Assembly (NCBI GenBank): GCA_025174535.1
Contig: JALBUN010000015.1
Coordinates: 53,501-117,500 of the forward strand
DNA length: 64,000 nt
DNA from: Cantharellus purpuraceus
Lineage: Eukaryota; Basidiomycota; Agaricomycetes; Cantharellales; Hydnaceae
Reading direction: 5' to 3'
Part shown: positions 8,906 to 53,695 of the stretch, piece by piece
Layout: each line of letters opens with the position of its first letter
Numbering within the stretch: position 1 is the stretch's first letter
Notes under the pieces: model-generated
What the model saw: the letters and a program-made list of their open reading frames with translations, nothing else
The model's database searches: none
Told to the model about the DNA's origin: nothing
Translations under genes and position numbers: made by a program

Positions 8906-9726
8906 TGTTAAGAAAAGATATGGAGGGGTGTTGTGGGTAAGTGTAAGATGAAGGTGAGGGATGGTGGCAAAGTAAATTTTGAATAGGGGAGCAATTACTG
9001 CAAGGATGCAGATATATGCAGGGTCGATGGAAAGGTGTTGTTTATTAGAGTAATGTTACCAAATATCAGAATATTTGGTTAAGAACTAGGACTTCTGCAA
9101 AATATTTGAGCAGAAATGGGAATAGCAACACTTCGAAAAAGTGTTTGCTTAATAGAAATGGATGTAATGATCCAAATCGTTCGTAATTTGAGATAGAAAT
9201 AGTTGATGCAATATCCTAATGGGATATGCAAAAGATTTCCAATCGAATAGGTCGTTTAGGAGTTATTCCAGGAACGACAGAAAGTTGACACAAGCTGTTT
9301 GTTTGCAGCTTGGAAGGGATTAAGAATAGTGAATCTCCTTGTTGATACTCGTACACAGTTGTAGTTAATATACAATTTGACAATAACATGATAAAAAGCC
9401 TTTAGTAAGATTGAAACATATGATAAAAGAAATGATGTGGATACTGATAATATGTGGTGTCATGGGGAAAAACTTTTTATAGAGAAAGGAGTTTTTACCT
9501 GTTTGACTTGAGGTTTATGACGAATGAAAATCATCATAATACCTCCATTTTTGAGTAGTAGCCACCCCCATAGAACGAAAGGATGGCTCACAAAATAAAA
9601 TCGAAAATCACCTCCTCCTCATCCCTTAATCAAAAAATTCCCAAACTTTTCACAACTTTTCCTTATCATAAAACTCCCCCTTCTTGCTCCAATAGATTGT
9701 AATATTACTTGAATAAATTCTTGACA
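8906..9726 (-). mobile_element. 5' LTR of copia A
   Basis: An 821-bp LTR (TGTTAAG..TTGACA on the plus strand), almost identical to the solo copies at 747 and 45269. It lies next to the primer-binding site. Sequence beyond 9726 is an LTR C fragment, so copia A inserted into an older gypsy LTR. The expected duplication TCTAA (9727-9731) cannot be matched because the other end is truncated. Confidence 0.93.
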
Positions 9727-11022: not shown

Positions 11023-14000
11023 ATGCAGAGTGCGGCTTCGATGGAAAACGATGTCAACAAAATCTTCTATGACATTTGCAATTCGAAACAAGCGACTTGA
11101 AATTATGCAATATCCCAGTTGCATAACTATGTATGTATATCCAGTTCTAGTTGGACTTGTGAGTAAGACTTTCCAGGTCGTTTCATGTGGATCATTCGCA
11201 CCCTCGACTGCATCAGTCAAATGGGAGGATGAGGTCAGACGGAATTTACACACCCTGGTAAATTCAAAGACCCTAGAACAGATGCGAGGGGCTATCCTAG
11301 CCATTGGTATGATATCTCTACTGTTGCTCTTACTGAATGAAATTCACCAAATTTTCATAGACGTAATCCTAGAGATCATCAAAGAGGATCCCCTCGATAA
11401 TAGGAGAAATCTCTTCCGCTTTTACAACTATCTAACCACTATATTGTGTCAAACGCAAGACACAAATATTCTCGCTGGAGCTTCATGGTCACTTGGTAGA
11501 CTTATACAGATTAGCGGCACTGTTCTCGGGGAACACTTTGTGGAGGAGCAAATTCCTTATTTTCTCGAAATGGAGGCCAATTCACCATTCAGCACCGTAC
11601 TCGCTTTGAAAGAACTTGCTCGACACAGTCCTGCGTCTTTTTTCCCACACCTTTCAAACGTGTTTCTCTGTATCTGGTGGCTTTTGCAGCATTCACAGGT
11701 ACACCATTTCTCTTTATACAATTTTCCCCTGTTGACTAATGGCAATGGCAGATTGACTTCTGCCATGCCGCTGCACAACTGATGGGATACATACTAGCTG
11801 CTATGGGAGTCCGTGATTTCCAGTCGAACCGAGAATTTATTGCAAATCTGGTCGATAGAGCACAACGCGACCTTGAATCTAATTCAATTGCCGTTCTGCA
11901 TGGTTCGCTGCTTGCATTGCGCGAGTTCTTTCTGTATGCAGAGAAGGTGAGAATTCTTCTTAAGACAACCTGAAATCACTTATTCAGGCCCGTGGTGTTA
12001 TAGGAATTCCTCATGGACCGCTTTCTTGAAATGTGCCAGGCAGTGCTCCGCTTTCGGGTCCACGCAGACCCCGCTGTGAGAAGCGTAGTGATGGATATGA
12101 TCCCAATATTCGCCCGCTTTGACCGGCAGGTTTTCCGTGATCAGTTCTTCCTCAATTGTATGGTTTACTTGATTGAGCGACTTGACTCGACCGACGGCCC
12201 AAAAGGTTAGTGATCACTTGCGCAAATTTGAAATGCCGCTGCTGAAAGTCTTTCAGCATACTTGGCGATTGGCAATTTATCGTCTTCTGTTCAAACAGAT
12301 TTGATCCCCTTCGTTGATGCAATCTTCCAGCACGTGGGAGGCATCCTACGGAAGCACACATAAGATATAGTTCTGAGTCAATTGATCCGTACCACTGATG
12401 TGAACCTCTTTCTGAAGCCGTCAGACTCCTGAATTATTGGATCACGTGTTTGACACAATTGGATTGCTAGCCTGCTCAATGGGCCCTGCCATCGCACACG
12501 CCGTTAATGATCAATTGGAATTGATATTTGCTTGTGAACTCAGCGAGTCCCTTCTCCGTATGCTTGAGACGATAGTGCGATATATCTCGGCGTTACTTGG
12601 CGTAATCCAAGGTCAGAGGGTATTACTTTACTCTCGGAATTTATCTAGTAATCACGCATCATAGTGTGTCTCCTCAATGTTCTTTCCATCATCCTCAGCG
12701 GTCAGCACTTTCAAGTGCAAGGCGCACCGCACCCCCCTGGCGAGACCTATGAGATTCCCACCTCCACCAATGTGAGTTTTGAAGCTTAAAGAAGAGGGGC
12801 TGTGTAGCTAACGATAAACTATCAGTCAAACAAGCATGTTACCCTGGCGCTTACAGTCCTGGGGTCCTTCAATTTCAAGGGCCATTTACTTAATGAATTC
12901 GTTGCCAAGGCTGTCATTCCTTATTTGGATAAAGAAGAAGTGGCCACGCAGAAGGTGGCTGCTCTTACCACTTGCAGGCTTCTTGCAAGGGATCCAATCC
13001 GGTACCAGCGCAGCTATCATGCACTATGTACTCTCGCGAAAACGATGGACAAGCTCTTATCTGTCGCCATTGTGGACTCTGGTGCGTGTCAAATATCATC
13101 TAGTAGGCGGATGAATCATTCATTCGACTTGTGTTTACATAGAACCCACCGTCCGATATACCGTGCTGTCCTCATTAAAGACAAGTCTAGATAAAGCCCT
13201 TTCCCGTGCTGAATATGTCCGAATGCTGGTGATCGCGCTTCATGACGAGGCTGTTGAGAATCGAATTCTGGCCATGCAAATTGTAGGACGCATTGCGAGA
13301 TGTAATACCGGGGATGTTTTGCCTCCTCTGCGGAAATCCTTGATACAACTGTTGACTGAACTAAAGTGTTCATTTTCCCCGTACGTCTGTTGATAACCAT
13401 TATCAGTCGAACTCCACCTATACCCTAATCAGGCAGAGCAAAGAAAGTGCAATTCGTATCCTTGCAGCTCTTTTAATTGCTACACATGCAGTGGTAGAGC
13501 AACATGTCAACGAGGTCCTCAGCGTCCTACTTGATTTCAGCAGGGATTCCAATCCCGTGGTCACTACCCACGTCCTGATTTGCCTCGGACAGCTTATGAC
13601 TGTAGATGACACGGCCGCCGTCTCTAGACAGATTCCTCGGATTATGGCTATCATCTTGTCTTCGTTATCCGGATCTTCGCAAATCCGCTCCACGGCTCTT
13701 GATTGTTTGGGGCGGCTGTGTACTAACATAGGATACGTTATCGTACCAATGGAGCAATATCCCCAACTTCCCCCACTGCTACATGGAATGCTGAAGCGGG
13801 AACAGAGTCCCAATGTGAGACTTCAGGTCATCAAGGTGATTGGTCTGCTAGGCGCACTTGACCCAGTTCAATACCAGGTACGATCTGCTTTGTCGTGACA
13901 TATCTCACATACTAATGCTTAGACTAGGTCAAGGTCCAGGGTTTAGTAATCATGGAGTTTCCTCCCGAATCTATCAATATAGTGCAAGACCCAGATACCG

Positions 14001-15437
14001 AGAAATCCCCCAAGGCGAGATCAGATCCTCCTTCAAAGCCCGATGACCTATACGAAGACCACGTAGTTGACTTACTGTTGGATATTCTTCAGACGCCCTC
14101 ATTAGGCAACCACCATCACTTGGTAATTGACTCGCTCATATCCATTGCAAAGACTCGCGGTATTAAGTTCGCATCCTTCATTCCGAAGGTGAGCTCCTAG
14201 TTATGGCTGACCCAATGTAATAGTATCCTGATATAGGATCATCACTACAGTTCATGCCGACCTTTTGCAACATTATACGAGACGCTATCCCCAGCTTACA
14301 GGGTTACTATCTTGGCCAGCTCACCTTTCTAGTTTGCGCAGTACACGAGCACATCCGTGGTTGTGTCAGTGACCTAATTGAACTCATCCAAGGCATTTGG
14401 GATGCTGCAGCACAGCGCCTGCCACTGGTTGTACTTGTTGAGACCTTAGCTGAAGCCCTCGCATCAGAGCTTAGACCATATGTGGCGGGTCTTATCCCCA
14501 AGCTATTGCTGATACTTCAAGAGAACAAAACGGAACCTCTCGCTGCAATACAAGTCAAAGCTTTAGCCGCTCTGACCGCATTTGCTTTTAACTTGCACGA
14601 CTACTTGAACTTGGTCGTTCTGGTCATCGTCTCGTGTTACGAATGCAGACATACACCTTTTATCCTTCGTAAGGAGGCCATACAGAGTCTTACCGGCCTC
14701 TCTAATACCGTTGAATTGTATCCATATACATCACGGACCATTCACTCCTTGATACCTCTATTAGGAGAGCTTGATGAGCCACTCCATGGTTGATGCACTC
14801 CGTTCATTTACTTATACCCTTGGCAATAGCCTCATAATCTTTATCCCGATCCTAACCAAGGTGTGTAAGGTGACGGAGGTTCTACAATGTCAAGGCTTAT
14901 TGTTGTGTCAAATAGACTCTCAGTAACAACACCGTCGACGTAGAAAAACTTCTGGACCTGTTTTCAAACGTGCTTCACAACCATCCTCTTCCTCCGTTGC
15001 AACGTTCACCTCAGTAAGTCTATCCGTGACGGAATGTTTTCAAAGAGCTGATCAGTTATATCGAAGTATCCCCGAAGAAGAACCGCCAGCAGATTCGGTG
15101 CGGTTGCCAAACCGACATCTTTTGAAACAAGCTTGGGATGTTTCGCGAGTGTCGGACAGCCCTGATGCTTGGATCGCGTGGTTTGCCAACCTCGCAGCTC
15201 AATTCTCCAAAGAGTCGCCATCTGTCTCCTTGAGATCATACATGAACCTTTTTGATGTCTATCCTAATATCTCTACAAAACTATTCAATCCAGCTCTAGC
15301 ATCCTGTTGGGAACATCTGGGCGAACCATTCCAGGTTTGTTATCCTATTCTCACCCAAGCCAATTGCTTACAGCTCTTGGTTAGGAGGATCTAATCCAGA
15401 CATTACAGCGCGTGATGTCTTCTTCTGTCACTCCCGA
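11023..15437 (+). pseudogene. TOR: TOR kinase relic, N-terminal HEAT-repeat half
   Basis: TOR is the PI3K-related kinase that controls growth in response to nutrients. From ATG 11023, exons split by short GT-AG introns follow the TOR HEAT region in order. Examples are DVNKIFYDICNSKQA, KWEDEVRRNLHTLVNS, NYLTTILCQTQDTN, SIAVLHGSLLALRE, FLEMCQAVLRFR and AYLAIGNLSSSVQTDL. The introns at about 11120, 11308, 11700, 12204 and 13878 have normal ends. An in-frame TGA at 11098-11100 falls where an Arg is expected. The coding sequence runs up to 15437, in the early FAT domain (LIQTLQRVMSSSVTPE), where the transposon begins. The stops here and in the second half mark it as a pseudogene, probably a paralogue of a working TOR elsewhere. 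Confidence 0.88.
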
Positions 15438-16000
15438 GACGCTTGTTCGGAATCATGTCAGTATACAATATTCTGATGTATAGGAGATATACATCAGGAT
15501 TTCAATGATACATAAAGCCAGGGAGTTACAATTTGGATATCTTAAAAGATTTCGGATGTGTGAAATTTTCATAAATATAAACATATATTCTATATTTTAA
15601 TAAACTAAAGATAAGATATTTGGTTGAGATGAACATAATTATTTACATGGATATAATAGGAATGTATATATGAATATAATTGGTATTATATAGGGTATTT
15701 AGATATACAAATACCAGGTGGGGATTAAAGATAGTTCAAATTATGTTATAAGTATTGTATAAGAAAGAATCAATGATATTTGGATGTTCCTTCAAGAGAG
15801 TTGCCACCACTAAATCAGGAAAAAAAGAATTATTTTTGAGAATTATGCCAAAATATCAAAATATGTTTTAATCTAGTATATTGTGTAAAATTTGAGAATC
15901 ATGTTGAAATATGAAAACAAGTCCGAATTGAAGTGTATTGTATAAAATTTGAGGAAAATAGGTTGTACATACGTATTTGTTGTATTTCTGAATAAGCGTC
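15438..16000 (+). repeat. Left terminal 563-bp TIR repeat
   Basis: A complete copy of the dispersed unit also found at 22691, 32251, 37288, 37867 and (reversed) 53052. A near-palindrome of about 25 bp lies 34 bp from the left end. It has no coding capacity. The inner flank is TTA. Confidence 0.95.
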
Positions 16001-16533
16001 TTAGGAAAGTCTTGGAAACAAACACCTTTAATGCAGTGAAGCTACTTTTAAAACAAAGTAACTTAGTTAGGGCATAGTGGTAGATAATCTTGTTCTAACA
16101 TAAGACTGTATGACTATCCCTCGTACTTTAGGGTGCAATACCATCAGATTTTCCATCCAAAGTGGTGGAAAATAATGATCCTGCTCCATACTAGTATATA
16201 ACTCTGTTAATTTCTGTTCCAGAAGTGTGCCATCAGTACATCTGTATAAAGTCAGTGATTGGAACCTTGATATTTATAAAGGAACTTACCTCAGAAACAA
16301 ATCATGGAGGGATCCTATCCGAGATATATACCAATCATTAACTCTTCTATCAAACTCTATCTTGCATTGAAGCATAAAAGAGAGCATCTTCATAATGCTT
16401 ATAACATAAAAACATAATAATCATTTTATTAAGAAAGCAAGATGTATATATCTACTGCCTATACAAAATATCAAATGTTCAGAAAAAATGATTATTATGT
16501 TTTTTCATTTCTGTTTTATAAGCAGAGAGGGAT
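16001..16533. other. AT-rich leader inside the transposon
   Basis: No ORF of note. It lies between the left terminal repeat and the first coiled-coil ORF. A stretch at 16071-16150 looks faintly tRNA-like but does not fold convincingly. It could hold a promoter for the ORFs downstream. Confidence 0.4.
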
Positions 16534-16782
16534 TTGAAAATGCCACAAATCTTTGAAGATATAAAAGCAATCAAAGGCTGGATAAGTGACAATGATGCAC
16601 TGATAAAAGCTATGGCAAGTCAAATGGAAGTAAAAGATGAATTAATATCTGATCTTATAAATGTCAAGTCTTGGATGAGTGAAAAGGATAGGCAGATCAC
16701 TATGCTTGAACAACAGGTTAATTCCCAGAGTCAGGAAATTCAGGTGCTTAAGAAACAGGTTGAGGAAAAAATACAATTATAA
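16534..16782 (+). CDS. Coiled-coil protein, transposon ORF, first part
   Basis: An 82-residue ORF with heptad-like spacing (IFEDIKAIKGWISDND, KSWMSEKDRQ, LEQQVNSQSQEIQVLKKQ). It resembles the next ORF, which shares the WMSE..D phrasing, and is probably an upstream exon or frameshifted part of the same gene. A possible intron acceptor (TTGACAG) ends at 16794, but no donor keeps the frame cleanly. I do not recognise the family. Confidence 0.6.
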   Translation: MKMPQIFEDIKAIKGWISDNDALIKAMASQMEVKDELISDLINVKSWMSEKDRQITMLEQQVNSQSQEIQVLKKQVEEKIQL

Positions 16783-16787
16783 CTACT

Positions 16788-17711
16788 TTGACAGACAGGA
16801 AAGAGAATTTAGATGAATGGATGAGTGAAATGAATGATATTGTATCAGGATTTGGAACAGATATTCATAAACTTCAGAGACAGGTTAATAGGTGTGTTGC
16901 CACAATATCAGACCATGGAACAGATATTCATCAACAGGTCAATACACATAATGCAGAGAATCTTATATTGGACTATAGAACAGATATTCATAAACTTCAG
17001 AAACAGGTTAATAGATGTATTGCAACAATATCAGACATTGTGGAATGGAAATCTGAAGTGCATGAGTGGATTGTAGAAACAGATGATACTGTAGTGGAAC
17101 TTGGAACAGACATTAATAAACTTCAGAAACAGGGTGATAAATATAAAGCAATAATATCTGAGATTGTTGACTGGAAATTTGATATGAATCACTGGGCTGG
17201 AAAACAAGAACAGGAGGTAACAAGGTTACAGGAAAATGGTACCAGAAAGGTGACATTTAAGATAGTGAAAAGAGGTGTAGACTATATACTTATAGACTCA
17301 GATCAGTCTTTTAGACTAAATAGAATGGAATTATTCATAAATGGTGAGCCTAGAAAACTATCTACAATATATACTAGAAAGAATGAAATGTCATCATATG
17401 ACGTAGATGGTAATAGGATTAATTTTCAAACATGGAAGCAAGGAATGACTCAAGGTTTAAGGCATCAAGAAAAAAGGTCTAATGAACGATCTCAAACTCC
17501 TAGTTCAAGGCATCAAGAAAAAAGGTCTAAGGAACGATCTGATTCAGACTCTGATCAATCTGATTCAGACTCTGATCAATCTGATTCAGACTCTGATCAA
17601 TCTGATTCAGACTCTGATCAATCTGATTCAGACTCTGATCAATCTGATTCAGACTCTGATCAATCTCAAATTCCTAGTTCAAGAAAAAGATGTAGAGGGA
17701 GAACCCAGTAA
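16788..17711 (+). CDS. Coiled-coil protein with Ser-Asp repeat tail
   Basis: About 300 residues, first ATG at 16821. Three or four diverged repeats of GTDIHKLQ.QVNRC.ATISD alternate with W-containing helices over the first 150 residues, which suggests a long coiled coil. A compact middle follows (TFKIVKRGVDYILIDSDQ). Then comes an Arg/Ser/Gln-rich part with two RHQEKRS phrases, six exact SDSDSDQ repeats and a basic end (SRKRCRGRTQ). The basic end may be a nuclear signal. Function is unknown. It could be an accessory DNA-binding or structural factor of the element, but that is a guess. Confidence 0.65.
   Translation: MTDRKENLDEWMSEMNDIVSGFGTDIHKLQRQVNRCVATISDHGTDIHQQVNTHNAENLILDYRTDIHKLQKQVNRCIATISDIVEWKSEVHEWIVETDDTVVELGTDINKLQKQGDKYKAIISEIVDWKFDMNHWAGKQEQEVTRLQENGTRKVTFKIVKRGVDYILIDSDQSFRLNRMELFINGEPRKLSTIYTRKNEMSSYDVDGNRINFQTWKQGMTQGLRHQEKRSNERSQTPSSRHQEKRSKERSDSDSDQSDSDSDQSDSDSDQSDSDSDQSDSDSDQSDSDSDQSQIPSSRKRCRGRTQ
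17541..17666 (+). repeat. 21-bp tandem repeat, six copies
   Basis: Six back-to-back identical 21-bp units encode SDSDSDQ within the preceding ORF. The identity of the units suggests recent slippage while the frame was kept open. Confidence 0.95.
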
Positions 17712-17725
17712 TGTAAGCCTCCGAA

Positions 17726-18508
17726 GACGTAGGATACAAGGTCACCTTGGAGTGAATGGCTGTCCATGAGCAGTCTAATGATGTCCCTATCTGTTGTTTC
17801 ATTTCTCCATGATTTCCCCTTTAGTAGCTCAACTTCACACGCTTCGTCAGCTGGCTTGATCAGCATTTCTTGCATCATTTGCTCCTCATATTGTGTCATT
17901 GTGCCCTGGGAATTTGTATATAAAAGGGCGCTAGTTTTTGCCTTTGGAATCAAAAAACAAGTTTTCAGCCAACGCTCTAAGTCTACACTCTACATCACAA
18001 TCCATCATCTCTACACTGAGGTAAAACACCTTGGTTCAACGATCAGATTTCCCTCCGCCACCGAGAGGTTGCTTCTCCTGAAACCAGCTGTCGTGTACCT
18101 CCCAACCGGGCTCCGCATTGTCATCCAGTCACAGAGCACGATCAGCCATCGGGACCGACCTTTTGCTCCCATCCTCATCCAACCACAGAGCACTATCCCA
18201 CTTCCCTGTTACGTACCCCTCGACCTGATTGATCTTTTGAGTGCTGAACAACTGCGTTACACACCGCCTGCTTGCTAGGACCATTGCACGCAGGCTTATA
18301 GGATCTATTCCATAAGCTAACCGACACCGAGTGACATCATCGGGCTGCTCAAGGACAACGATTCAATTATCTGGTACACCATGCCGCTGCAAAGTCTCAC
18401 CTACTGTCTGCTCAGTAAGTGCATCATTATCAACCCTCACAGCCAAAAGGCTGTCCTTTGATAATGTGATCAAACTGCTCCTGACAAGGTGACCTTCCAT
18501 CCGACGTC
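17726..18508 (+). mobile_element. 0.78 kb nested block with 24-bp terminal inverted repeats
   Basis: The left end at 17726-17749 and the reverse complement of 18485-18508 match at 21 of 24 positions and share AAGGTCACCTTG. The block is visibly richer in GC than the transposon around it and starts 14 bp after the stop of the SD-repeat ORF. It contains a TATAAAAG box (17919-17926). Its stretch at about 18215-18330 is repeated at 55081-55190. I see no clear target duplication. It is probably a separate small element, or part of an LTR, that landed in the transposon. Confidence 0.55.
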
Positions 18509-18818
18509 ATTACCATGATATGATAATATCCAATCGGCTGGTACACCTATTTAGCTATGCAGCAAAGAATTTGGAATGAAAGACTGGCAAGATAGGAAAC
18601 AAGGAACTGGTAGAAGAATGATAGATGAAAGGACAGGGAATTCTGTATGGGACTTTGTTGTAGTATTCAGAACGAGTGCATGCATCTGGCTATTGACAAC
18701 TTTAGAAAATATATATAATTCAATTTATAAATATTAGATAAAAATATGGACATTCTGCTCTTCAGAACTATGCACATATCTAGTAAATAAATTTTATATA
18801 TCCTTCTTTATTGACATC

Positions 18819-19043
18819 ATGGGTAAAGATAAGAAGTGCAATGATTGGAGTTCTCATGATCTTTGGGATTATGGTATAATGGTTGACACACAATGGACTA
18901 AACAGTTTTTTGAGACAGATTTTAGAGATATTACTTTAGATACTGATGATGAGATCCTCAGTTTTGATTACAAAAAAGATGATGTGAAATGTTTAAAGGA
19001 GTCTTCAAGAAAATTTTTTACATACTTAGATAAGGAAGAATAA
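18819..19043 (+). CDS. Small unknown ORF (74 aa) in transposon
   Basis: It starts MGKDKKCNDWSSHDLWDYG and is acidic in the middle (DTDDEILSFDYKKDD). ATG follows an AT-rich leader with TATATA at about 18795. The codon choice is AT-rich like the transposase. No family recognised. Confidence 0.5.
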   Translation: MGKDKKCNDWSSHDLWDYGIMVDTQWTKQFFETDFRDITLDTDDEILSFDYKKDDVKCLKESSRKFFTYLDKEE

Positions 19044-19065
19044 GGGAAAAAGTGCTTTAGAGGAA

Positions 19066-19311
19066 ATGACAATACCTTGCATTCAAACATCGAGAAAAGT
19101 CCCCCAGTTTTACCTAGTAACTGTTACAAGAGAGCTTGATCATGCTATCACAGAAGGGTTGTTTTCAGAAGTGATAACAAATGTAAGGTGTTGTTTTCCT
19201 GTAACAGTAACAGGTATGAAACATATTAATAGTAGAAAGAATGTTCTACAGTGTTTTGAAGCATTTAAGAAGTTTGTAGATATACTTGATAGGAAATTAG
19301 ATGAGAAATAA
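19066..19311 (+). CDS. Small unknown ORF (81 aa) in transposon
   Basis: It follows the previous ORF by about 20 bp in the same orientation. The protein has a hydrophobic beta-like start (FYLVTVTRELDHAI) and a C-terminal helix (CFEAFKKFVDILDRKLDEK). It could be a downstream exon of the 18819 ORF. No family recognised. Confidence 0.5.
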   Translation: MTIPCIQTSRKVPQFYLVTVTRELDHAITEGLFSEVITNVRCCFPVTVTGMKHINSRKNVLQCFEAFKKFVDILDRKLDEK

Positions 19312-19349
19312 TGAGTTTTGAAAATTAATATATAATAACCAGAGACACC

Positions 19350-19529
19350 ATGTTGAATATACCCGAGATTGGTGATAAGGTATCATTTATCAATGCAAGA
19401 ACACAAATGACAGTGACAGGTATTGTTACATTAGTAACTGGCACTTTGTCAGATGACACTTTGCTAATAACTGTTACTTATGATGACAATGAGATTCAGC
19501 TACCACTACTTGCACTACAACAAGTATAA
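19350..19529 (+). CDS. Very small ORF (59 aa) in transposon
   Basis: It opens MLNIPEIGDKVSFINAR and continues with Thr/Val-rich beta-type sequence to LLALQQV. It reads like a small beta-barrel (GDKVSF..G.V...V.YDDNEIQLPL), but I cannot assign it. It is the third ORF in an ordered cluster on the plus strand. Confidence 0.4.
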   Translation: MLNIPEIGDKVSFINARTQMTVTGIVTLVTGTLSDDTLLITVTYDDNEIQLPLLALQQV

Positions 19530-19822
19530 GATAAATCAGATAAGTGAATATGCAATATTTTTATTCACTCAAATGAAGGCATGTGTGGTGATAGTGAAAA
19601 ATTCAAATTACTTGGAAGTGCAATCATATAACTACTACATCTGTAGTTACAGATTGTAAGGATATTAAATGTCCTAAGAGCTCTGAACATTCAAAAAATA
19701 CTCATCATGATACTAATGGTACTTATTGTTGTGTGAACAAAAGTTCAAATCTTGAAATTATCCAAGTGAAAATAAATGAAAAATGTTGTGAGTGTAGAAA
19801 CTAGGACTTTTAAATCAACTCC

Positions 19823-20473
19823 TTATGAGGATTCTTTGAACATCTGATTTCTTATACTTTGGAATATAATGTCAATAGCATTAGAACACTCTTCAAACTG
19901 AGCTTCTATGCTGTATCCAGAGGAAGGATATACAACAATTGAAACACCCTGATTGTTATTGGTGGTTTCATATAATTTTAACCTACCATCCTTAGTTATG
20001 ATCATACCATAGATTGTGATTTTACTTTTCTTGAAAACTCTCTGCTGTTGTTTCAATGCAACAACCATTGATGTAACCAAATTGTTATACACATCACAGT
20101 TCTTACAAGTTTCCCCAGCAATAGAAATATCACACTTCTTGCCAGTTTCTCTAGCAATAGAAATATTACAACTAGGCAGATTATCCTGTTGCATGGTTTG
20201 CAGACTTGACATACAATGATTTTGTTGAATCCAGGTTGAATTACTTATTTCATTGCCCTTTTCAATCATCTTATTGTACAGTGCTTCTGGTGTTTTATCT
20301 CTTTCCTGAGAAACCGATCCAGCTGGAAAGAAGTCCTTTGGGGGATTTCTTAATCTGAATTTTATGTAGATGGTGTCAGAGTCTATATACAAAGGATTTT
20401 CATCATCCTCTGGTTCTTTTTTAACAAAGACAGTAGATATTTTACTAACAACTTGCTTAGAGACAGACAACAT
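19823..20473 (-). CDS. Unknown 216-aa transposon protein
   Basis: One uninterrupted frame. The N-terminus is basic/acidic (KKEPEDDENPLYIDSD). A Cys-containing repeat occurs twice in the middle (CNISIARETGKK, CDISIAGETCKN), and the C-terminal half looks folded (KSKITIYGMIITKDGRLKLYETTN). It lies head to head with the ORF at 20570, about 100 bp apart, so a shared promoter is likely. It could be the second (Myb-like) protein that Harbinger elements usually carry, but I see no Myb motif. Confidence 0.6.
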   Translation of the reverse strand: MLSVSKQVVSKISTVFVKKEPEDDENPLYIDSDTIYIKFRLRNPPKDFFPAGSVSQERDKTPEALYNKMIEKGNEISNSTWIQQNHCMSSLQTMQQDNLPSCNISIARETGKKCDISIAGETCKNCDVYNNLVTSMVVALKQQQRVFKKSKITIYGMIITKDGRLKLYETTNNNQGVSIVVYPSSGYSIEAQFEECSNAIDIIFQSIRNQMFKESS

Positions 20474-20569
20474 AGCTTCATAGAATAAATATTATTTAAT
20501 TTAAAATTCAATTATCAAAAAAATGAACATATTTTTGTTTTACTGTAATATAAGAGTATCTTAGTCAAA

Positions 20570-20785
20570 ATGCCCTCAGACCAGCAAAAACGCACAAAGG
20601 AGCAAAAAGAGAAAGAGCAAAAAGAGAAAGAGCAAAAAGAGAAAGAAGAAAAAGAGCTTCAGCAACTTAAAATGTGGAATGATCAAAGGGACAGAGCATA
20701 TAATAAGTTGATGGACAATCATTGGAATTTTCTATACACAAAGTGGCCTGTCTTAGAACACAAAAATATCATAGAACAAAACTAA
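20570..20785 (+). CDS. Lys/Glu-rich leader ORF before transposase
   Basis: 71 residues with a KEQKEKEQKEKEEKE run, made by 15-bp tandem repeats, then LQQLKMWNDQRDRAYNKLMDNHWNFLYTKW cut in phrasing like an alpha-helical domain. It is probably the 5' exon of the transposase gene. An intron with a good acceptor (TTGTTTTCAG) would end near 20875. Confidence 0.5.
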   Translation: MPSDQQKRTKEQKEKEQKEKEQKEKEEKELQQLKMWNDQRDRAYNKLMDNHWNFLYTKWPVLEHKNIIEQN

Positions 20786-20861
20786 AAGATATGAATGACA
20801 TGGATGATGTAAAAAAGTAGTATATAACAAGCTTGGACCAATACCAGTATTTTTCTTTCTT

Positions 20862-21931
20862 GTGGTATTGTTTTCAGTTGAAGAACATTCTACACCTTAT
20901 AGAGAGATAGAAAAAGGCTTGTTAGTACTATATCATCTACTCAAAGGTCCTACTTATGAAGAAATAGGAAATTTCATGCCATCAAGTAGCTTTTATGATG
21001 TTCATAAGGAATTTTATGGTCGTCTGCATCATCTTAACTTTGATCTAGATAAACAAGTTACTGATTCACTGCTTACAATGTTCTCAAATATAATAATAAG
21101 GATATTATCAGCTCTTATAAAGAATCCTCCAAAAATGGAATCAGTGACATTACTTCTTGATGGTCATGATACAAGAGGAATTTTGATTGGATCGACATCT
21201 GAAGAGGGGTACTCACATAAATTTAAAAGGCAGGATTTCGTACTCAAGTATGCATTGACATTAATCAAATGGTTCTATTCACCTCACCTTCATTGGCATG
21301 TAAACTAAATCCTGATGCAAAAATGTTTGTAGAGATGGCTGTATGGAATAAAATAGATAAGAATGATCAGATAGGCTTTGATGGAGCTTATCCATCTGCT
21401 ATTCCAGAAGTAGTAAAGGCAAGTATATTAAAGCCTAAGAACTTCTTTTATCCTTTTCGGAAGCCAAAAAATGTTGAACTTAAACCTGAAGAAAAGATTT
21501 TTAATAAGAAGTTTGGTGCCTTTCGTTCAACAGTAGAAGCATTCTTTGGAGGGTTTGCAATATTGTTTGAAAAATTTGATAATAAGAGATCTATTAGAAC
21601 TACAAATCCTGCTGTCTTTAATCTGGAATTAAAGGTAGCATGTCTATTATGGAATATTAAGAAATTTGTAGAACTACGTAAGATCAAACCATCCCCTTAT
21701 CATGAAAAATGGTGTGAACAATATTTTGATTACCCTGAGGAAGAGGACCCAGATATTGAGCCACCCAGATCATTACTTGAAAGAGCAGAAGATGTTGACA
21801 AGATGACTCTATCTCAACAACGACTATTAGAAAGATGTGAGTATGATGTGGAGATGCATTATGAGACTGAAAATGAAGTAGAACAAATAATAAGGCAAAG
21901 AAAAAGGAAAGTACGTAGAATATTTAGTTAA
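20862..21931 (+). pseudogene. PIF/Harbinger-like DDE transposase (frameshifted)
   Basis: It catalyses cut-and-paste transposition. The three acidic residues can be placed: D in VTLLLDGHD (about 21160), D in IGFDGAYPS (about 21375) and E in RSTVEAFFG (about 21535). After the third come FEKFDNKR and a helix (ACLLWNIKKFVEL), typical of DDE_Tnp_4-type enzymes. A one-base frameshift near 21270 breaks the frame between the first and second D. A second one near 21910 separates the chromodomain. The 3-bp target duplication of the element supports the superfamily call. Another IS5-like family is possible. Confidence 0.72.
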
Positions 21932-22058
21932 ATGGAAATGTTATGCAGAGAAAACTTGGGAAGCAACATCAAGCTTTAAATCTACAGAATGTATTAAAGA
22001 GTATTGGAAAGACAATAGTAATAGTATTATTGTATACCTATGCTACATTCAACTGTAA
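21870..22058 (+). pseudogene. Chromodomain at the transposase C-terminus
   Basis: After ENEVEQIIRQRKRK in the transposase frame, shifting by one base gives KYVEYLVKWKCYAEKTWE and then FKSTECIKEYW before a stop at 22056-22058. This is the chromodomain pattern (VE.I...R, YLVKWK.Y...TWE, I..YW). The two tryptophans are present. The first aromatic cage residue appears to be replaced by a polar one. In retrotransposons such domains bind methylated histone H3. A role in targeting this DNA transposon is inference. Confidence 0.75.
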
Positions 22059-22113
22059 ATTTTTTTCCCAGAATAAAATTGAATATTTGTATGTTTTATA
22101 CTTATAGGTATCT

Positions 22114-22611
22114 ATGGAGACTGATCCATTACTGAAACAGCGTCTCAATCAACAGTTTTACCAAAAGCCTTTTCACAGCAATCCACACCGGCTAGCTAAT
22201 TGTACAACGTGTGACTGGTACCCCTTTGGGCAGTATCTGGACCGTTCATATGCTGAAGGTGAAGTGTTCCAGCTTTCAAAGTATCCTCATATCAAATATG
22301 TATTTCTTGGTCTACAACCTGATAAAATAGGCTATAATGAAAGTGATCCTATTTTTGTAGCAGAATTTGCAGGTTTTCTGAATAAAACCAACAGATTTGT
22401 AAGTGGTTCTGATCCAACCTCTGGATATGCACACATTATAACCACACATGTGAATCAGGCGTTTGTTAGACAGCCAGGCCCAGATATAAATAGGCAGAAA
22501 CTATATCTTGGCCGTACAGTGCACATGATCTACATAACTAGTATTGGTATACTATTGGCTTTGCTGTGTTGGACAGTGTCCAGACATACCAATGAAGATA
22601 AGAATTCATAA
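22114..22611 (+). CDS. Unknown 165-aa protein with C-terminal membrane helix
   Basis: An intact frame from METDPLLKQRLNQQFYQK. It has a CTTCDW motif near residue 30 and ends with one hydrophobic segment (MIYITSIGILLALLCWTV) followed by a polar tail, which suggests a tail-anchored membrane protein. It is the last ORF before the right terminal repeat. A membrane protein is odd cargo for a Harbinger-like element. No family recognised. Confidence 0.55.
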   Translation: METDPLLKQRLNQQFYQKPFHSNPHRLANCTTCDWYPFGQYLDRSYAEGEVFQLSKYPHIKYVFLGLQPDKIGYNESDPIFVAEFAGFLNKTNRFVSGSDPTSGYAHIITTHVNQAFVRQPGPDINRQKLYLGRTVHMIYITSIGILLALLCWTVSRHTNEDKNS

Positions 22612-22690
22612 TGGCATGTCTAAATCTATGGAGAAAGAAGCTTGTTGATGATATAAGGTGATGATTTTTGTTTTTAAAATGACCTCCCTA

Positions 22691-23255
22691 GACGCTTGTT
22701 CGTAATCATGTCAGTATACAATATTCTGATGTATAGGAGATATACATCAGGATTTCAATGATACATAAAGCCAGGGAGTTACAATTTGGATATCTTAAAA
22801 GATTTCGGATGTGTGAAATTTTCATAAATATAAACATATATTCTATATTTTAATAAACTTTAAAAGATAAGATATTTGGTTGAGATGAACATAATTATTT
22901 ACATGGATATAATAGGAATGTATATATGAATATAATTGGTATTATATAGGGTATTTAGATATACAAATACCAGGTGGGGATTAAAGATAGTTCAAATTAT
23001 GTTATAAGTATTGTATAAGAAAGAATCAATGATATTTGGATGTTCCTTCAAGAGAGTTGCCACCACTAAATCAGGAAAAAAGAATTATTTTTGAGAATTA
23101 TGCCAAAATATCAAAATATGTTTTAATCTAGTATATTGTGTAAAATTTGAGAATCATGTTGAAATATGAAAATAAGTTTGAATTGAAGTGTATTGTATAA
23201 AATTTGAGGAAAATAGGTTGTACATATGTATTTGTTGTATTTCTGAATAAGCGTC
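22691..23255 (+). repeat. Right terminal 565-bp TIR repeat
   Basis: The same unit and orientation as 15438-16000, differing at only a few positions (for example CGTAATC for CGGAATC, and a 3-bp length change near 22860). Its inner flank is CTA and its outer flank is the duplicated CGA of the TOR exon. Confidence 0.95.
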
Positions 23256-26200
23256 CGAGGTAGCACACTATATGCTTGACCTCGTCGAGTACATGGAGCA
23301 CACAGAGAATCCGTTGCCGGTCTCTCATGCTTTCATGGCAGATAATTGCTTCAGACTCCAGGCATACGCAAAGGCTTTGCATCACCGAGAACTTCAATTC
23401 TTCCAAGATTTTGCTCCTTGAACGATTGAAGGGTTAATTGACATCAACGCCATGCTTTGTCAGGGTGATGCTGCTTTAGGGACCTTGAACCTAGCCAGAA
23501 AACATCACGATGTCCCCAATCCTGAATCGTGGTATGAAAAGCTGGGGCAGTGGAGTGATGCCCTTCAAATATACCAAGGGAAAGAAGACTCATCAGAAGG
23601 GACGCACGAGCTCATCATTGGAAAACTGTGATGTCTGCACGCCTTAGGTGAATGGGAACAAGTGACTGCTCTTGTAGCGCAGAAATGGCCACACGACGAT
23701 AGTAAGCTACAGTCAATACTCGCTGCACTTGGGGCGGCAGGCGCCTGGCACACTGGGTCCTGGACGTCGTTGGAAACCTACTTTTCTGCCATGGAGCGCG
23801 ACTCAGGAGATCGTGCGTTTTATAGCGCGGTATCGTATATTCAACAGAATTGACATTCGCATGCGTTGTCCCATGTATACGTGGCCAGAGACCTTCTTGA
23901 CCCTGAGTTGACATCTTTACTGGACGAGAGCCCTGACCGCTTAGATCGGTACCATTCTTCTACAACTCTTTAAAGCAACATCTAATTTTTCCTGATGTCC
24001 AAGCACAGATGTTGTCTGAGCTTGAGGAAGCCATCTTGTACAAGCGATTGTCACATAAGTCGAAACGGCGCCCGAAGCTACGTGAGACATGGAAGAGACG
24101 GTTGGATGTTCTGCTGATCTCTCACTCAAAGATAACTGATATCAAGCTTCTTCAGACGAGATGGATGCCAGCACAACCCAAACGTGTGGCAGAGGATCCT
24201 CAAAGTCCGTAGTTTGGCAATAAAGCCGGAGGAGGACATCGATACCATTGTACGTTTTGCGAATCTTTGTCGTAAGTCTGTAGGTTCGGAGCGGCAAAGC
24301 GGGCGATGGACTCTTTAGTCCAGTTAGAAGATAAAGTAGGTGAATTAATCTCCTGTGGACTCTCAGAATGCTGATCTTTGATCCATGTCCAAGGCGCCTC
24401 CGCAGATAATATATACACATCTTAAGTGGCTTTGGGCTAGCGGGGATCGCGCAAGCGCACTATCGTCGATACGAAAGTTTATTGAAGGACTGTCACAGAC
24501 CCACAAGCTGGACAATTCCACTGAAGCGAAGACAATTGCCCACATCTTGGCGCGGTGTCATCGCAAGCACGGGAATTGGCAGATTGAGATTGACGGTGGC
24601 CTAACTTCAGTAGGTGTGATTCTTAACTCAACTCTGGACATGACGGCTGATTGGTTACACAAGGCAAATGCTGGTCCCGTCCTAAAATCGTACAGCCTGG
24701 CGACAACGCTTGATCCACAGTGGTCAAAAGCCTGGCATATGTGGGCCCTTTCAAACTGGGATATCATTCGAGTCTCCCCAGAAATGTCTACAGACGTGGA
24801 GCTGGGGGACACAGAATCAGTAGCTCATCGTACATCCCACATAGTTGCTGCGATTGAAGGAAAGCTGTATACTCTTCAGTGTGAATTAGTCTAACCCTGC
24901 TAACAGGATTCTTTGGTTCACTTGCACTAATGGGCCAGAATAATTTACAAGACGTGCTGAGCCTCCTGACCCTATGGTTCAGATATGGTGTTCAGCCTGA
25001 AGTTACAAAAGCAATGATCAAAGGTTTCAAAGGGATCACTTGCACTCTGTGGCTAGGTGTAGTTCCGCAGGTATCTTTCTGATGCCACCGCTAGTGTTCT
25101 CAGACCTCTTGTATGGGTTACATGTACTTTGGTACTGTCCTAGATCATTGCCAGAATCCAAACTCCGATTCCCATTGTCAGAGAGGCTCTCTTTCATCTA
25201 TTGGCGACTATCGGTCTAGAACACCCTCAAGCTCTCGTCTACCCTTTAACCGTTGGCGCGAAGTCTCCTAGTCTCCCAAGGAAGACGGCGGCGTTGAAGA
25301 TCTTGGACCAGATGACCTCTCATAGTATGGTTTTGGTGGAACAGGTCAGTTCCATGGCGACTCATTTGTTACACATTTGCTCAGCCAGGTTTGCTATTAT
25401 GAGGCCAAGCTTGTGGCACGGGAACTGAGCCGCGTAGCAATCAGCTGGGGGGAGCTTTGGTATGAAGCGCTACAAAGGTCGGGACAACACTACTTGAATG
25501 AAGACTCGAAAGCGCTCCTGGACCACCTTCAGTCACTTTACAAACTACTTCAAGTTCACACACCTATCACCTGTCTTCAGTGGATATATGCTTACCTGTA
25601 ATATGATCAGGATCCTTCAACGTTTGAACAAGAGTTTAAGGAAATCCTTGGCCCTACGTTAGAAGAAGCGAGAGCGCTTTGTCGTCGTCACTGCACTCAA
25701 GGTGACAAAAATGCCTTCGACCATGCCTGGCACCTTTATTTTCATGTGTATCAACAATTAGAGTCACATCTCCCCGACATCCAAACAACCACACGCCCGG
25801 GTTCTAATCAAAGTCTTGATTTGCATTTGGTATCACCACAACTTCTACGTGCTGTCAATTTGGAAATTGCTGTGCCAGGTGGGTATTAGTCACTCAGAGA
25901 TTACGGGTTGATGATCTCGGCGTGAACCTGATCAGGCACGTATATGAGTGGACGTCCCATCATTAGGATAGCCAGTTTTGCGCACATTGCAAATGTGCTA
26001 TCAACCAAACAGCGACCACGGCAATTAGTAGTGGTCGGAAATGATGGCCAACGATATATGTATCTCCTTAAGGGTGCGTTTTCGAAGCCTTTTATTGTCA
26101 TGTTTACTGACATTTCCCTGTAGGCCGTGAAGATCTTCGTCAAGACGAGCGAGTTATGCAGGTCATTGGACTTGTCAATACACTTCTCGCAAAGGACAGG

Positions 26201-28598: not shown

Positions 28599-30219
28599 GA
28601 GACAAACGTGAGTCAGTGAGTACAATGACTCAGATTGACTGGAGAAATACATATCTGTAGTAGGTATACTTATACATGTGAAAATGATCTTGGAATCCAG
28701 ATCATACATGAAGTATCTATATCACATGAGTGAAATAGAATAGAAAATAGACTGTGTTTTGTATATGATCAGGTAGGAGGTATAAAGCGATGAGGATTGG
28801 ACATGAGGATCAGGTGATATTAGACATAGAGGGGGTGATAATCAATATGAATGAGAAATAGGAGATAGAATTGAATAGCTAGTTACAAAGATAAAAGACT
28901 TGGCATATGGATCCATGACTCCTGACTGTATGCAGGGATATATCATGCAGGCAGTCGTTTGTGTAGGCAATGATAATATGATCTAGCCTCATGACTGGTG
29001 ATCGGACAGAGCATAGTATTTGGAATGTGATATGGAGCTTGTGACGAGAGATGAATGAGTGGTTGTGTATGTTGGCGGGAACAGAATAAGCCTGTACGCA
29101 TGGTTTACAACATCCTATACTACACCCACCACACTTGACTTTGTGGAGAATATGCAAGGGTGGGAGGCCGATTGTGAAGTGTAATTCAAGAGAATATTGC
29201 CATCGACATGCATATGGTTGAAGAATAGCAAAATTTCAGCACTTTACGCGATGTGCGCAGGAACCGCAGACGGACTTCGAGATGACTGGAAACACTCATT
29301 CTGGCTGAAAGAAAGAATAAGGTCGTCTTCGAAGTTTGAATGCAAAGAAGTGTTGTGGCCACATAATACTGGCGTTTCACTATCTTAGCATCTAACCTCC
29401 ATGTCTGAGCAAGTGAATGTGTGTGGTCCTGCAGCACATGTGATGGCTGATACTATCGACATTGGTTACTAGCACCCGTCTGACTTGCCAGAGGCTGAAG
29501 CCCAGAAATATAACACTGAAGCGCCGCGCCGATCGTTTCATAGCCTGATATCAGGCATCTTCGCTCTGACCATATTTAAGCAAGGCAAGGTCTGTCTGCG
29601 TAGCCCTGCGGTATACATCCAATGAATCATACTCAAGTCGTGCCAGGTTGAAGGCCAGGAACACAACCATGAAGGTCTGTGCCGGTCTTGGTTCCATCAC
29701 CTCACATTGTCCTTGAATTACTGCTGTATTGAGACACCCTTGCTCATGCTAACCCTCCGTCCCACGACATTTCCGCCACCACCTCAGAGTCTGATCCTGC
29801 CGAGATAAGTGACAGCTCATATGCCTCATTATCACCCTGATGTACCCATATGGTCATTCTACATGAAGGAAACGGAGGCCGAGAACAAGGGATTGGTGAA
29901 GTGATGGCAGAGTGGCCATGACACCCTTTTGGTATCCATGAGTCCAGAGTTTCATCGGCTCACAGGCAAAGTCTGACGTGCCTCAGGCCGGTCTATCCGT
30001 TGGAATTCTGATTGCTTTCCTTATCTAGGGGCGGAAAGGATTGCAGGCAGAGCCACAAAGCATGCTACTGCTTTTCTGCTCTTTAAACGTGTCCAGATCT
30101 TCCTTCACTCTATCCACTTTGTACTTGCATGTGAATTATCTATGGTGTACTAGCCTGACGTTTACCCTCATCGGTGCACTGGCTAGAGTGCTTGCCAAAG
30201 GTTGGCTTGTAAAGTATGC
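28599..30219 (+). repeat. Inverted duplicate of 2570-4189
   Basis: About 1,621 bp nearly identical to 2570-4189 in reverse orientation. This copy runs on into the remainder of the DUF6535 gene, so it is the more complete version. The breakpoints are at GAGACAAAC (28599) and GTAAAGTATG (30219). Confidence 0.93.
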
Positions 30220-32250: not shown

Positions 32251-32815
32251 GACGCTTGTTCGGAATCATGTCAGTATACAATATTCTGATGTATAGGAGA
32301 TATACATCAGGATTTCAATGATACATAAAGCCAGGGAGTTACAATTTGGATATCTTAAAAGATTTCAGATGTGTGAAATTTTCATAAATATAAACATATA
32401 TTCTATATTTTAATAAACTTTAAAAGATAAGATATTTGGTTGAGATGAACATAATTATTTACATGGATATAATAGGAATGTCTGTATTAATATAATTGGT
32501 ATTATATAGGGTATTTAGATATACAAATACCAGGTGGGGATTAAAGATAGTTCAAATTATGTTACAAGTATTGTATAAGAAAGAATCAATGATATTTGGA
32601 TGTTCCTTCAAGAGAGTTGCCACCACTAAATGGGGAAAAAACAATTATTTTTGAGAATTATGCCAAAATATCACAATATGTTTTAATCTAGTATATTGTG
32701 TAAAATTTGAGAATCATGTTGAAATATGAAAATAAGTTTGAATTGAAGTGTATTGTATAAAATTTGAGGAAAATAGGTTGTATATATGTATTTGTTGTAT
32801 TTCTGAACAAGCGTC
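32251..32815 (+). mobile_element. Solo 565-bp TIR repeat, TSD TAT
   Basis: The same family as the termini of the TOR transposon. Ends are GACGCTTGTTCGGAA and TTCTGAACAAGCGTC. TAT lies on both sides (32248-32250 and 32816-32818). Confidence 0.95.
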
Positions 32816-37287: not shown

Positions 37288-37853
37288 GACGCTTGTTCAG
37301 AATCATGTCAGTATACAATATTCTGATGTATATCTCATATACATCAGAATTTCAATGATACATAAAGCCAGGGAGTTACAATTTGGATATCTTAAAAGAT
37401 TTCAGATGTGTGAAATTTTCATAAATATAAACATATATTCTATATTTTAATAAACTTTAAAAGATGAGATATTTGGTTGAGATGAACATAATCATTTACA
37501 TGGATATAATAGGAATGTATGTATTAATATAATTGGTATTATATAGGGTATTTAGATATACAAATACCAGGTGGGAATTAAAGATAGTTCAAATTATATT
37601 ACAAGTATTGTATAAGAAAGAATCAATGATATTTGGATGTTCCCTCAAGAGAGTTGCCACCACTAAATGGGGAAAAAAAGAATTATTTTTGAGAATTATG
37701 CCAAAATATCAAAATATGTTTTAATCTAGTATATTGTGTAAAATTTGAGAATCATGTTGAAATATGAAAATAAGTTTGAATTGAAGTGTATTGTATAAAA
37801 TTTGAGGAAAATAGGTTGTATATACATATTTATTGTATTTCTGAACAAGCGTC
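37288..37853 (+). mobile_element. Solo TIR repeat, TSD TAT
   Basis: 566 bp, ends GACGCTTGTTCAGAA and TTCTGAACAAGCGTC (perfect 15-bp TIR). TAT flanks it at 37285-37287 and 37854-37856. The empty site is visible at about 44995 in the sister gypsy copy. Confidence 0.95.
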
Positions 37854-37866
37854 TATGGAATGCTTA

Positions 37867-38432
37867 GACGCTTGTTCGGAATCATGTCAGTATACAATAT
37901 TCTGATGTATAGGAGATATACATCAGGATTTCAATGATACATAAAGCCAGGGAGTTACAATTTGGATATCTTAAAAGATTTCGGATGTGTGAAATTTTCA
38001 TAAATATAAACATATATTCTATATTTTAATAAACTTTAAAAGATAAGATATTTGGTTGAGATGAACATAATTATTTACATGGATATAATAGGAATGTATA
38101 TATGAATATAATTGGTATTATATAGGGTATTTAGATATACAAATACCAGGTGGGGATTAAAGATAGTTCAAATTATGTTATAAGTATTGTATAAGAAAGA
38201 ATCAATGATATTTGGATGTTCCTTCAAGAGAGTTGCCACCACTAAATCAGGAAAAAAAGAATTATTTTTGAGAATTATGCCAAAATATCAAAATATGTTT
38301 TAATCTAGTATATTGTGTAAAATTTGAGAATCATGTTGAAATATGAAAATAAGTTTGAATTGAAGTGTATTGTATAAAATTTGAGGAAAATAGGTTGTAC
38401 ATACGTATTTGTTGTATTTCTGAATAAGTGTC
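37867..38432 (+). mobile_element. Second solo TIR repeat, TSD TTA, 13 bp downstream
   Basis: Nearly identical to the TOR transposon ends. TTA flanks it at 37864-37866 and 38433-38435. The empty site AATGCTTAAGCAAC is at about 45005. The last TIR base pattern is GTGTC instead of GCGTC, again a C-to-T change at CpG. Confidence 0.95.
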
Positions 38433-52845: not shown

Positions 52846-53695
52846 ATATGCATTTCTAATCCACATGTAAAAGCATTTCCTAACCCATTCATAAAAGTGT
52901 TTTCTAACCTGCAAATAAAAGCATTTCCTAGCCTGTGTGTAAAAGCATTTCCTAACCCATGCATAACAGCATTTTCTAACCCATGTGTAAAAGCATTTCC
53001 TAACTCATGTGTAAGGGCATTTTCTAACCTGCATGTAAAAGCATCTCCTAAGATGCTTGTTTAGAAATACAACAAATATGCATATACAACCTATTTTCCT
53101 CTAATTTTACACAACACACTTAGATTAAAACTTATTTTCATATTTCAACATGATTCTCAAATTTTACACAATATACTAGATTAAAACATATTTTGATATT
53201 TTGGCATAATTCTCAAAAATAATTCTTTTTTTCCCCATTTAGTGGTGGCAACTCTGTTGAGGGAACATCCAATATCATTGATTCTTTCTTATACAATACT
53301 TGTAACATAATTTGAACTATCTTTAATCCTCACCTGGTATTTGTATATCTAAATAACCTATATAATACCAATTATCTTAATACATACATTGCTGTTATAT
53401 TCATATAAACAGTTATGTTCATCTCAACCAAATGTCTTATCTTTTAAAGTTTATTAAAATATGAAATATATGTTTATATTTATGAAAATTTCACACATCT
53501 GAAATCTTTTAAGATATCCAAATTGTAACTCCCTGGCTTTATATATCATTGCAATTCTGATGTATATCTCATATACATCAGAATATTGTATAATGACATG
53601 ATTCTGAACAAGCATCTAACCCACACATACAAGCACACATAAAAGCATTTTCTAACCCACATGTAAAAGCATTTCCTCACCATAAAATTATTTCT
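52846..53695 (+). repeat. 24-bp minisatellite interrupted by a TIR repeat
   Basis: About nine units of AAAAGCATTTCCTAACCCAT type lie at 52846-53051, and at least two more continue at 53617-53695 after the nested 565-bp element. The 8-residue protein repeat it encodes is incidental. Confidence 0.85.
53052..53616 (-). mobile_element. Solo TIR repeat (reversed), TSD TAA
   Basis: Reverse copy of the 565-bp unit with both TIRs changed to GATGC/GCATC. TAA lies on each side (53049-53051 and 53617-53619). It is the most diverged copy in the window, so the oldest insertion. Confidence 0.93.

Follow-up and report, generated by a model that had tools for sequence, protein, structure and literature searches.

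Architecture of the element

The window analysed here is a 64,000-nucleotide stretch of the Cantharellus purpuraceus genome (contig JALBUN010000015.1, C15:53501-117500, of the 40.15-Mb, 50-contig assembly GCA_025174535.1), and it contains, at 15438-23255, a transposon in which a 6690-bp interior (INT) lies between a 563-bp and a 565-bp repeat, with CGA on either side of the whole. The two repeats, termed long terminal direct repeats (LTDRs; L and R for left and right), share one orientation and are 98.4% identical, and each carries its own imperfect 15-bp terminal inverted repeats (TIRs; GACGCTTGTTCGGAA / TTCTGAATAAGCGTC, 13 of 15 positions matching by eye). Four solo LTDRs also lie in the window, each inside its own matching 3-bp duplication.

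15435..15437: left outer target duplication, CGA
15438..16000, plus strand: left LTDR, 563 bp, with its own TIRs
16001..22690, plus strand: INT, 6690 bp, first letters TTA, last letters CTA
22691..23255, plus strand: right LTDR, 565 bp, with its own TIRs
23256..23258: right outer target duplication, CGA
32251..32815, plus strand: solo LTDR, duplication TAT
37288..37853, plus strand: solo LTDR, duplication TAT
37867..38432, plus strand: solo LTDR, duplication TTA
53052..53616, minus strand: solo LTDR, duplication TTA

An earlier note on this DNA had reported a single 3-bp duplication, CGA, with TTA and CTA as inner flanks, and the same flanks were found on re-reading. Its description of the ends as full 564-bp TIR elements in the same orientation was right as to the TIRs and the direct arrangement, and wrong as to the lengths, the T of the inner TTA having been included.

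A genome-wide family that inserts as a unit

The LTDR-INT-LTDR arrangement is a genome-wide family, and one far beyond chance, since LTDR 5' ends at up to two mismatches number 489 in the genome (0 with a reversed-pattern control) and the same inner left junction recurs 61 times. The earlier note had suggested a search of the genome for copies of the interior with other termini; each of the 61 INT left ends found (up to three mismatches) directly follows an LTDR 3' end, leaving 0 of 61 without an LTDR. INT right ends number 59, and left and right ends could be paired in 54 cases, 53 of them spaced 6.0-7.3 kb and one 12.4 kb. Left unpaired are seven left ends, five of them near contig ends, and five right ends, namely three of older relatives, one at a contig start and one at C45:2949441. 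A right LTDR directly follows INT in all 33 family right LTDRs read, the reads having been positioned for this junction. Two sets of candidates were scored in part (40 of 689 and 23 of 645).

Three tandem arrays (on C44, C45 and C38) have, by coordinates, one LTDR length (565-567 bp) between successive interiors; the C45 dimer has TAA at both outer ends, and the C44 array is cut short at its left end. Three older relatives, read at their right sides, came up as transposase matches of 63-67% identity (C23:1090802, C35:14068 and C24:167193) that adjoin slightly different INT right ends. All three reads have an LTDR start directly after CTA (complete with TIRs on C35, breaking off into other sequence on C23 and C24), the pieces that could be matched showing 75-84% identity to the LTDR of the window, from which the paired-end design may predate this family.

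The copy with the 12.4-kb interior (L034, C1:2359644-2368997) has about 5.6 kb of extra DNA that splits INT near its position 800, has open reading frames (ORFs) of 755, 212 and 259 amino acids, and is probably a nested element. Three same-orientation LTDR pairs 7.3-7.6 kb apart (C3:969588-977165, C3:1370027-1377378 and C3:2017548-2024848) enclose no recognised interior; next to one pair, 1.4 kb of flanking DNA matches other dispersed repeats, and the pairs could represent other interiors or chance.

Both LTDRs were read in 32 of the 54 composites, a set made up by contig order together with some further loci. The outer 3-bp flanks are identical in 28 of these 32 (TAA 8, TTA 8, ATA 4, TAT 2, CAA 2, and AAA, CGA, TAG and TTT one each; thus TTA or TAA in 16) and the inner flanks are constant, which supports insertion of LTDR-INT-LTDR as a single unit and bears out the claim of the earlier note that the 7.8-kb element had moved as one. 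Among the four mismatches, C26.126007 is the window insertion itself, found again on contig C26, where the locus is near-identical (two 3.6-kb stretches match at 99.6%). Its tip has decayed and CGA remains next to it; it is not independent of the window copy, yet is scored as a mismatch in the figure of 28/32. Two others, C1.456961 and C3.1362356, have L and R of different sequence classes, as would be expected from crossing-over between two copies, and the fourth, C17.49346, has TTA and ATA. Solo LTDRs have their own matching duplication in 15 of the 18 sampled (10 picked by similarity to the window repeat, 2 adjacent to such matches), and flanks revealed LTDR-family insertions inside another LTDR (C23) and inside an interior (C24).

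At the few stretches compared, C15 from about 1 to 80000 and C26 from about 57000 to 137000 are 99.5-100% identical and seem to overlap, perhaps as two haplotypes or as redundant contig ends.

Ends mostly alike within a copy and reshuffled between copies

Within a copy, L and R differ by a mean of 2.28 events (median 1; no difference in 10 copies, 3 or fewer in 25 of 32), as against between-copy means of 10.8 for L-L, 10.4 for R-R and 10.6 for L-R; permutation of partners (20000 trials) gave a mean of 10.4 and a minimum of 7.4. At 16 LTDR sites with common variants, L equals R in 486 of 512 cells (permuted fraction 0.61 on average, 0.72 at most), and this with 23 different L haplotypes among the 32 copies. 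Mean r2 for the same site in L and R, some 7 kb apart, is 0.77, whereas for different sites inside one LTDR it is 0.12, and all four allele combinations occur in 91 of 120 LTDR site pairs. Interior sites, compared in 18 complete copies, are likewise loosely linked (mean r2 of 0.08-0.19 by distance class; four combinations in 346 of 595 pairs). Because L mostly equals R within copies while sites within one LTDR are barely linked, the LTDR has been reshuffled among members and then doubled; by their sequences, the two LTDRs of a copy usually go back to a single template, itself the product of earlier recombination within the family. The degree of L/R equality could be influenced by polishing of the assembly.

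Neighbouring LTDRs that do not belong together as a copy's two ends (six pairs, 13 bp to 4.5 kb apart) show 22, 32, 19, 19, 12 and 19 differences, the pair at 22 being two solos 13 bp apart and that at 32 a solo 116 bp from an R; this comparison and the reversed-pattern control rule out chance or mere closeness of repeats. Five L/R differences of the window copy are also present at the near-identical C26 locus, and have therefore outlived the C15/C26 split.

Diversity among the 18 full copies is 2.1% in the LTDR and 0.55% in INT. At 15 of 16 variable LTDR sites both alleles are also found in solos (site 314 had tied counts and its alleles were given as one letter; the remaining letters show both in solos), and eight solos met by position show a mean of 22 differences, against 10 among composite L. 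These figures fit an exchange of LTDR sequence with an older pool of solos while INT stays young; alternatively, the LTDR may simply evolve faster.

Genes of the interior

16534..17711, plus strand: ORF of a coiled-coil protein with SDSDQ repeats, in two frames in the window copy and in a single 355-amino-acid frame in copy L043
18819..19311, plus strand: remnant of a 256-amino-acid protein that is one frame in copies L037, L038 and L041
19823..20473, minus strand: 216-amino-acid protein, present at full length in all 18 complete copies read
20570..21931, plus strand: PIF/Harbinger-like DDE_Tnp_4 transposase, frame-shifted at A-runs in the window copy
21894..22058, plus strand: chromodomain-like stretch, out of the transposase frame, identified by eye against homologues
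22114..22611, plus strand: 165-amino-acid protein with a long helix at the C-terminus; all 18 complete copies read have it at full length, and it matched no family

Judging from sequence, INT encodes a PIF/Harbinger-like transposase: PF13359 is present in 71 of 80 transposase homologues, and D193, D267 and E319 are invariant across 10 aligned transposases. With the TWA-rich duplications, this upholds the ‘Harbinger-like’ label given by the earlier note. Relatives of the transposase occur in Mucoromycota, and many homologues have a chromodomain; a search of PDB sequences returned no match for it and, for the nuclease-like family, one weak unrelated match (E 0.22). DDE_Tnp_4 is the only transposase found in INT; none of Kolobok type was found.

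Neither Pfam nor PHROGs yielded a convincing family for the four accessory proteins; the coiled-coil protein had many weak matches. Relatives of the 256-amino-acid protein have a predicted model that is PD-(D/E)XK-like, with moderate confidence; the 216-amino-acid protein has no homologues at E 0.001; and the 165-amino-acid protein, modelled alone, gave a poor model (mean pLDDT 47.7) that was not used. A His-Me finger endonuclease had no Pfam match in the five interior proteins, and neither the 10 ORF pieces tested from the window copy nor five proteins from elsewhere in the family matched a reverse transcriptase. Transposase frames vary between copies by the length of A-runs near window positions 20762, 20811 and 21225, which may reflect real decay or sequencing error.

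Surroundings in the window

The ORFs that flank the composite (13952-24891) match mTOR_dom (E 5.9e-10) and FAT (E 2.6e-18), and since the composite sits between them, its host site is probably a TOR-kinase-like gene or pseudogene. A repeat of 823 bp whose ends are TG..CA occurs three times (747-1569, 8906-9726 and 45269-46091), two of the copies having GATTT and CTTAG, by eye, on both sides; in contrast to the LTDRs, these look like solo LTRs (long terminal repeats) of an ordinary LTR retrotransposon. A 1620-bp stretch is present twice in opposite orientation (2570-4189 and, on the minus strand, 28599-30218), and with 99.9% identity is a very recent repeat. No tRNA or tmRNA was found in the window by ARAGORN.

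Discussion

We propose, as a fairly probable account, that this is a PIF/Harbinger-like LTDR-INT-LTDR family with an intermediate, circle or array, that has one LTDR and would insert in the fashion of a cointegrate. Ends that are reshuffled between copies and mostly equal within them point to a stage with one end only. That mobile stage would most simply be an LTDR-INT circle, generated by recombination between two LTDRs with a solo left behind; the transposase would then nick both ends of the circle's LTDR and join them to a target cut with a 3-bp stagger, and the LTDR would be copied during repair to give a cointegrate, such that INT ends up between identical LTDRs within one duplication. 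We suggest that the inner TTA and CTA would be the circle's own LTDR flanks, perhaps an old duplication with one change. In a close variant, monomers would be excised as a unit from homogenised arrays. More tentatively, and with rather more doubt, the intermediate could be a nuclear circle of one LTDR and INT that inserts by cointegrate-style replication, with the LTDR as the true transposon and INT as its backbone; recombination between LTDRs would re-release the circle, leave solos behind and let the circle swap its LTDR with the solo pool.

A number of points weigh against the cointegrate account. The stage with one LTDR is deduced, and PIF/Harbinger elements have been described as cut and paste (PMC10288884). 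The match of the transposase (P0001) to the Pfam family DDE_Tnp_4 (E 6.5e-05, 23.0 bits) falls slightly below the cut-off of 24.8, and a Myb/SANT-like partner had no Pfam match in the five interior proteins, although a divergent one could escape. Exact patterns gave 0 matches to INT-INT or abutted LTDR-LTDR junctions. The likeness of the ends is itself incomplete: the nearest (or tied) LTDR is the copy's own partner for only 24 of 32 L and 23 of 32 R, L and R differ by at least 4 in 7 of 32 copies, full agreement at all 16 sites is seen in only 20 of 32, and the lowest same-site r2 is 0.07 (site 115). Facing right LTDRs of two C9 composites, 0.4 kb apart, show only 6 differences. Diversity is also uneven, the INT-adjacent part of the LTDR (0.8%) being no higher than parts of INT, and one INT stretch (18038-18437) standing at 2%. 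Lastly, for 46 of the 57 L/R substitution differences over the 32 copies both letters occur elsewhere in the set and 11 look new, many of the 46 belonging to copies that look recombinant or to the window/C26 pair, whose two members count as ‘elsewhere’ for one another; some exchange after doubling of the LTDR is likely to have taken place.

This last observation is also what a cut-and-paste composite would offer, if its LTDRs were equalised later by gene conversion within a copy, with further conversion among copies and solos. Gene conversion between direct repeats, which hosts commonly carry out, would account for equal ends together with widespread recombination in both LTDR and INT, and in cis it could mimic part of the L/R pattern. 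We regard this as the main rival, and as unlikely, in that the six neighbouring pairs of non-partner LTDRs have remained 12-32 differences apart, several L/R differences of the window copy are shared with the C26 locus and hence survived that split, and separate hits on L and R among copies should give unlike ends more often than is observed. A circle with one LTDR might instead enter an existing solo by homologous recombination, one of the models raised for KolobokP elements, the composite then inheriting the duplication of the solo. Solos are plentiful, their LTDR variants recur in composites, and one copy (C15.457793) has L and R unlike on one side only with its duplication intact, as this route would allow; a crossover would, however, yield complementary L/R mosaics, and the rule is equal or near-equal ends, so that we think the route improbable.

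Equal ends that are reshuffled between copies also recall LTR elements, and an RNA route acting in trans could produce them. That the ends read GACGC..GCGTC, that the duplications are 3 bp and TWA-rich with a DDE_Tnp_4 transposase inside, and that the ordinary LTR-like repeats of the same window end in TG..CA, all make such a route very improbable; reverse transcriptase was not found in the ORFs tested, and for this reason and the unlike ends we reject identity as an LTR retrotransposon. Hardly credible is a plain composite, in which two independent MITE-like elements came by chance to lie on either side of a transposase gene and travel with each other unaltered. Each LTDR is indeed a TIR element complete in itself, and solos with duplications of their own exist, but such a composite predicts L-L and R-R to be closer than L-R within a copy, and the reverse was found (2.28 versus 10.8 and 10.4). 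The L/R comparison thus rejects the classical composite of independently evolving left and right elements; of the two alternatives put forward in the earlier note, the LTR-like reading fits better than the composite, L and R not being separate lineages.

Comparison with known systems

PIF/Harbinger elements have a DDE_Tnp_4 transposase, 3-bp TWA-rich duplications, small non-autonomous relatives and a second, Myb/SANT-like DNA-binding protein, a partner that some members may lack. The fungal family shares the transposase, the duplications and the small relatives (its solos), and differs in having two direct-repeat ends, each a complete TIR element, and in that the partner was not found among its five interior proteins. 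Bacterial cointegrates and IS26-type pseudo-composite units have the order element, circle backbone, element, with direct, identical copies and an outer duplication; they are known in bacteria, whereas for a eukaryotic DDE_Tnp_4 element the process is only proposed here. Such bacterial units are also mentioned in PMC9587614. The likeness to LTR retrotransposons, namely two ends that would be identical at insertion, is a working likeness and not one of membership.

The earlier note had held composite transposons flanked by two whole elements to be a bacterial idea, which is contradicted by maize and by animals. In maize, linked Ac elements make composite insertions in which intervening DNA is carried within one duplication (PMC4270019), and the Ac/Ds composites or macrotransposons resemble the fungal family in their linked TIR elements, their one target duplication and, in one model, their re-replicated ends (PMC4270019, PMC9910405); they are, however, individual rearrangements with varied inner DNA (PMC4270019), whereas the fungal family proliferates with a fixed interior.

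The closest parallel is KolobokP, of the Kolobok superfamily, which has the LTDR-INT-LTDR architecture in seven animal phyla (Kojima and Bao 2022, PMC9587614). In KolobokP too TIRs lie within each LTDR, the LTDRs measure about 450 or 660 bp, solos have duplications, (LTDR-INT)n-LTDR arrays occur, and INT encodes a DDE transposase (PMC9587614). For an accessory nuclease, KolobokP has a His-Me finger protein (PMC9587614), to which the fungal family offers only the predicted PD-(D/E)XK-like protein, of doubtful activity. KolobokP differs in superfamily, in its animal hosts and in solo duplications of 3-5 bp, against DDE_Tnp_4 and 3-bp TWA-rich duplications in the fungus; and it shows INT-INT junctions (PMC9587614), which exact patterns did not find in the fungal family. 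Both unequal crossover and circles are considered by the KolobokP authors, who describe the pathway as unknown, and the parts of PMC9587614 covered report no test of whether L and R are equal within a copy while reshuffled between copies.

The LTDR design, then, is known from KolobokP of animals and is found here in a fungus, in a different superfamily and kingdom; a fungal or Harbinger LTDR element was not found in the open-access literature (PMC). Since the papers found describe the paired-end design for animal KolobokP alone, its presence in a fungus beside a Harbinger-like transposase suggests that the design may have had more than one origin, and that it may carry an advantage. Fungal ends that are mostly equal within a copy and reshuffled between copies bear on the question, raised by the KolobokP authors, of how the architecture is kept, and they lay open to direct test whether a cut-and-paste superfamily of eukaryotes can take a replicative route of cointegrate type.

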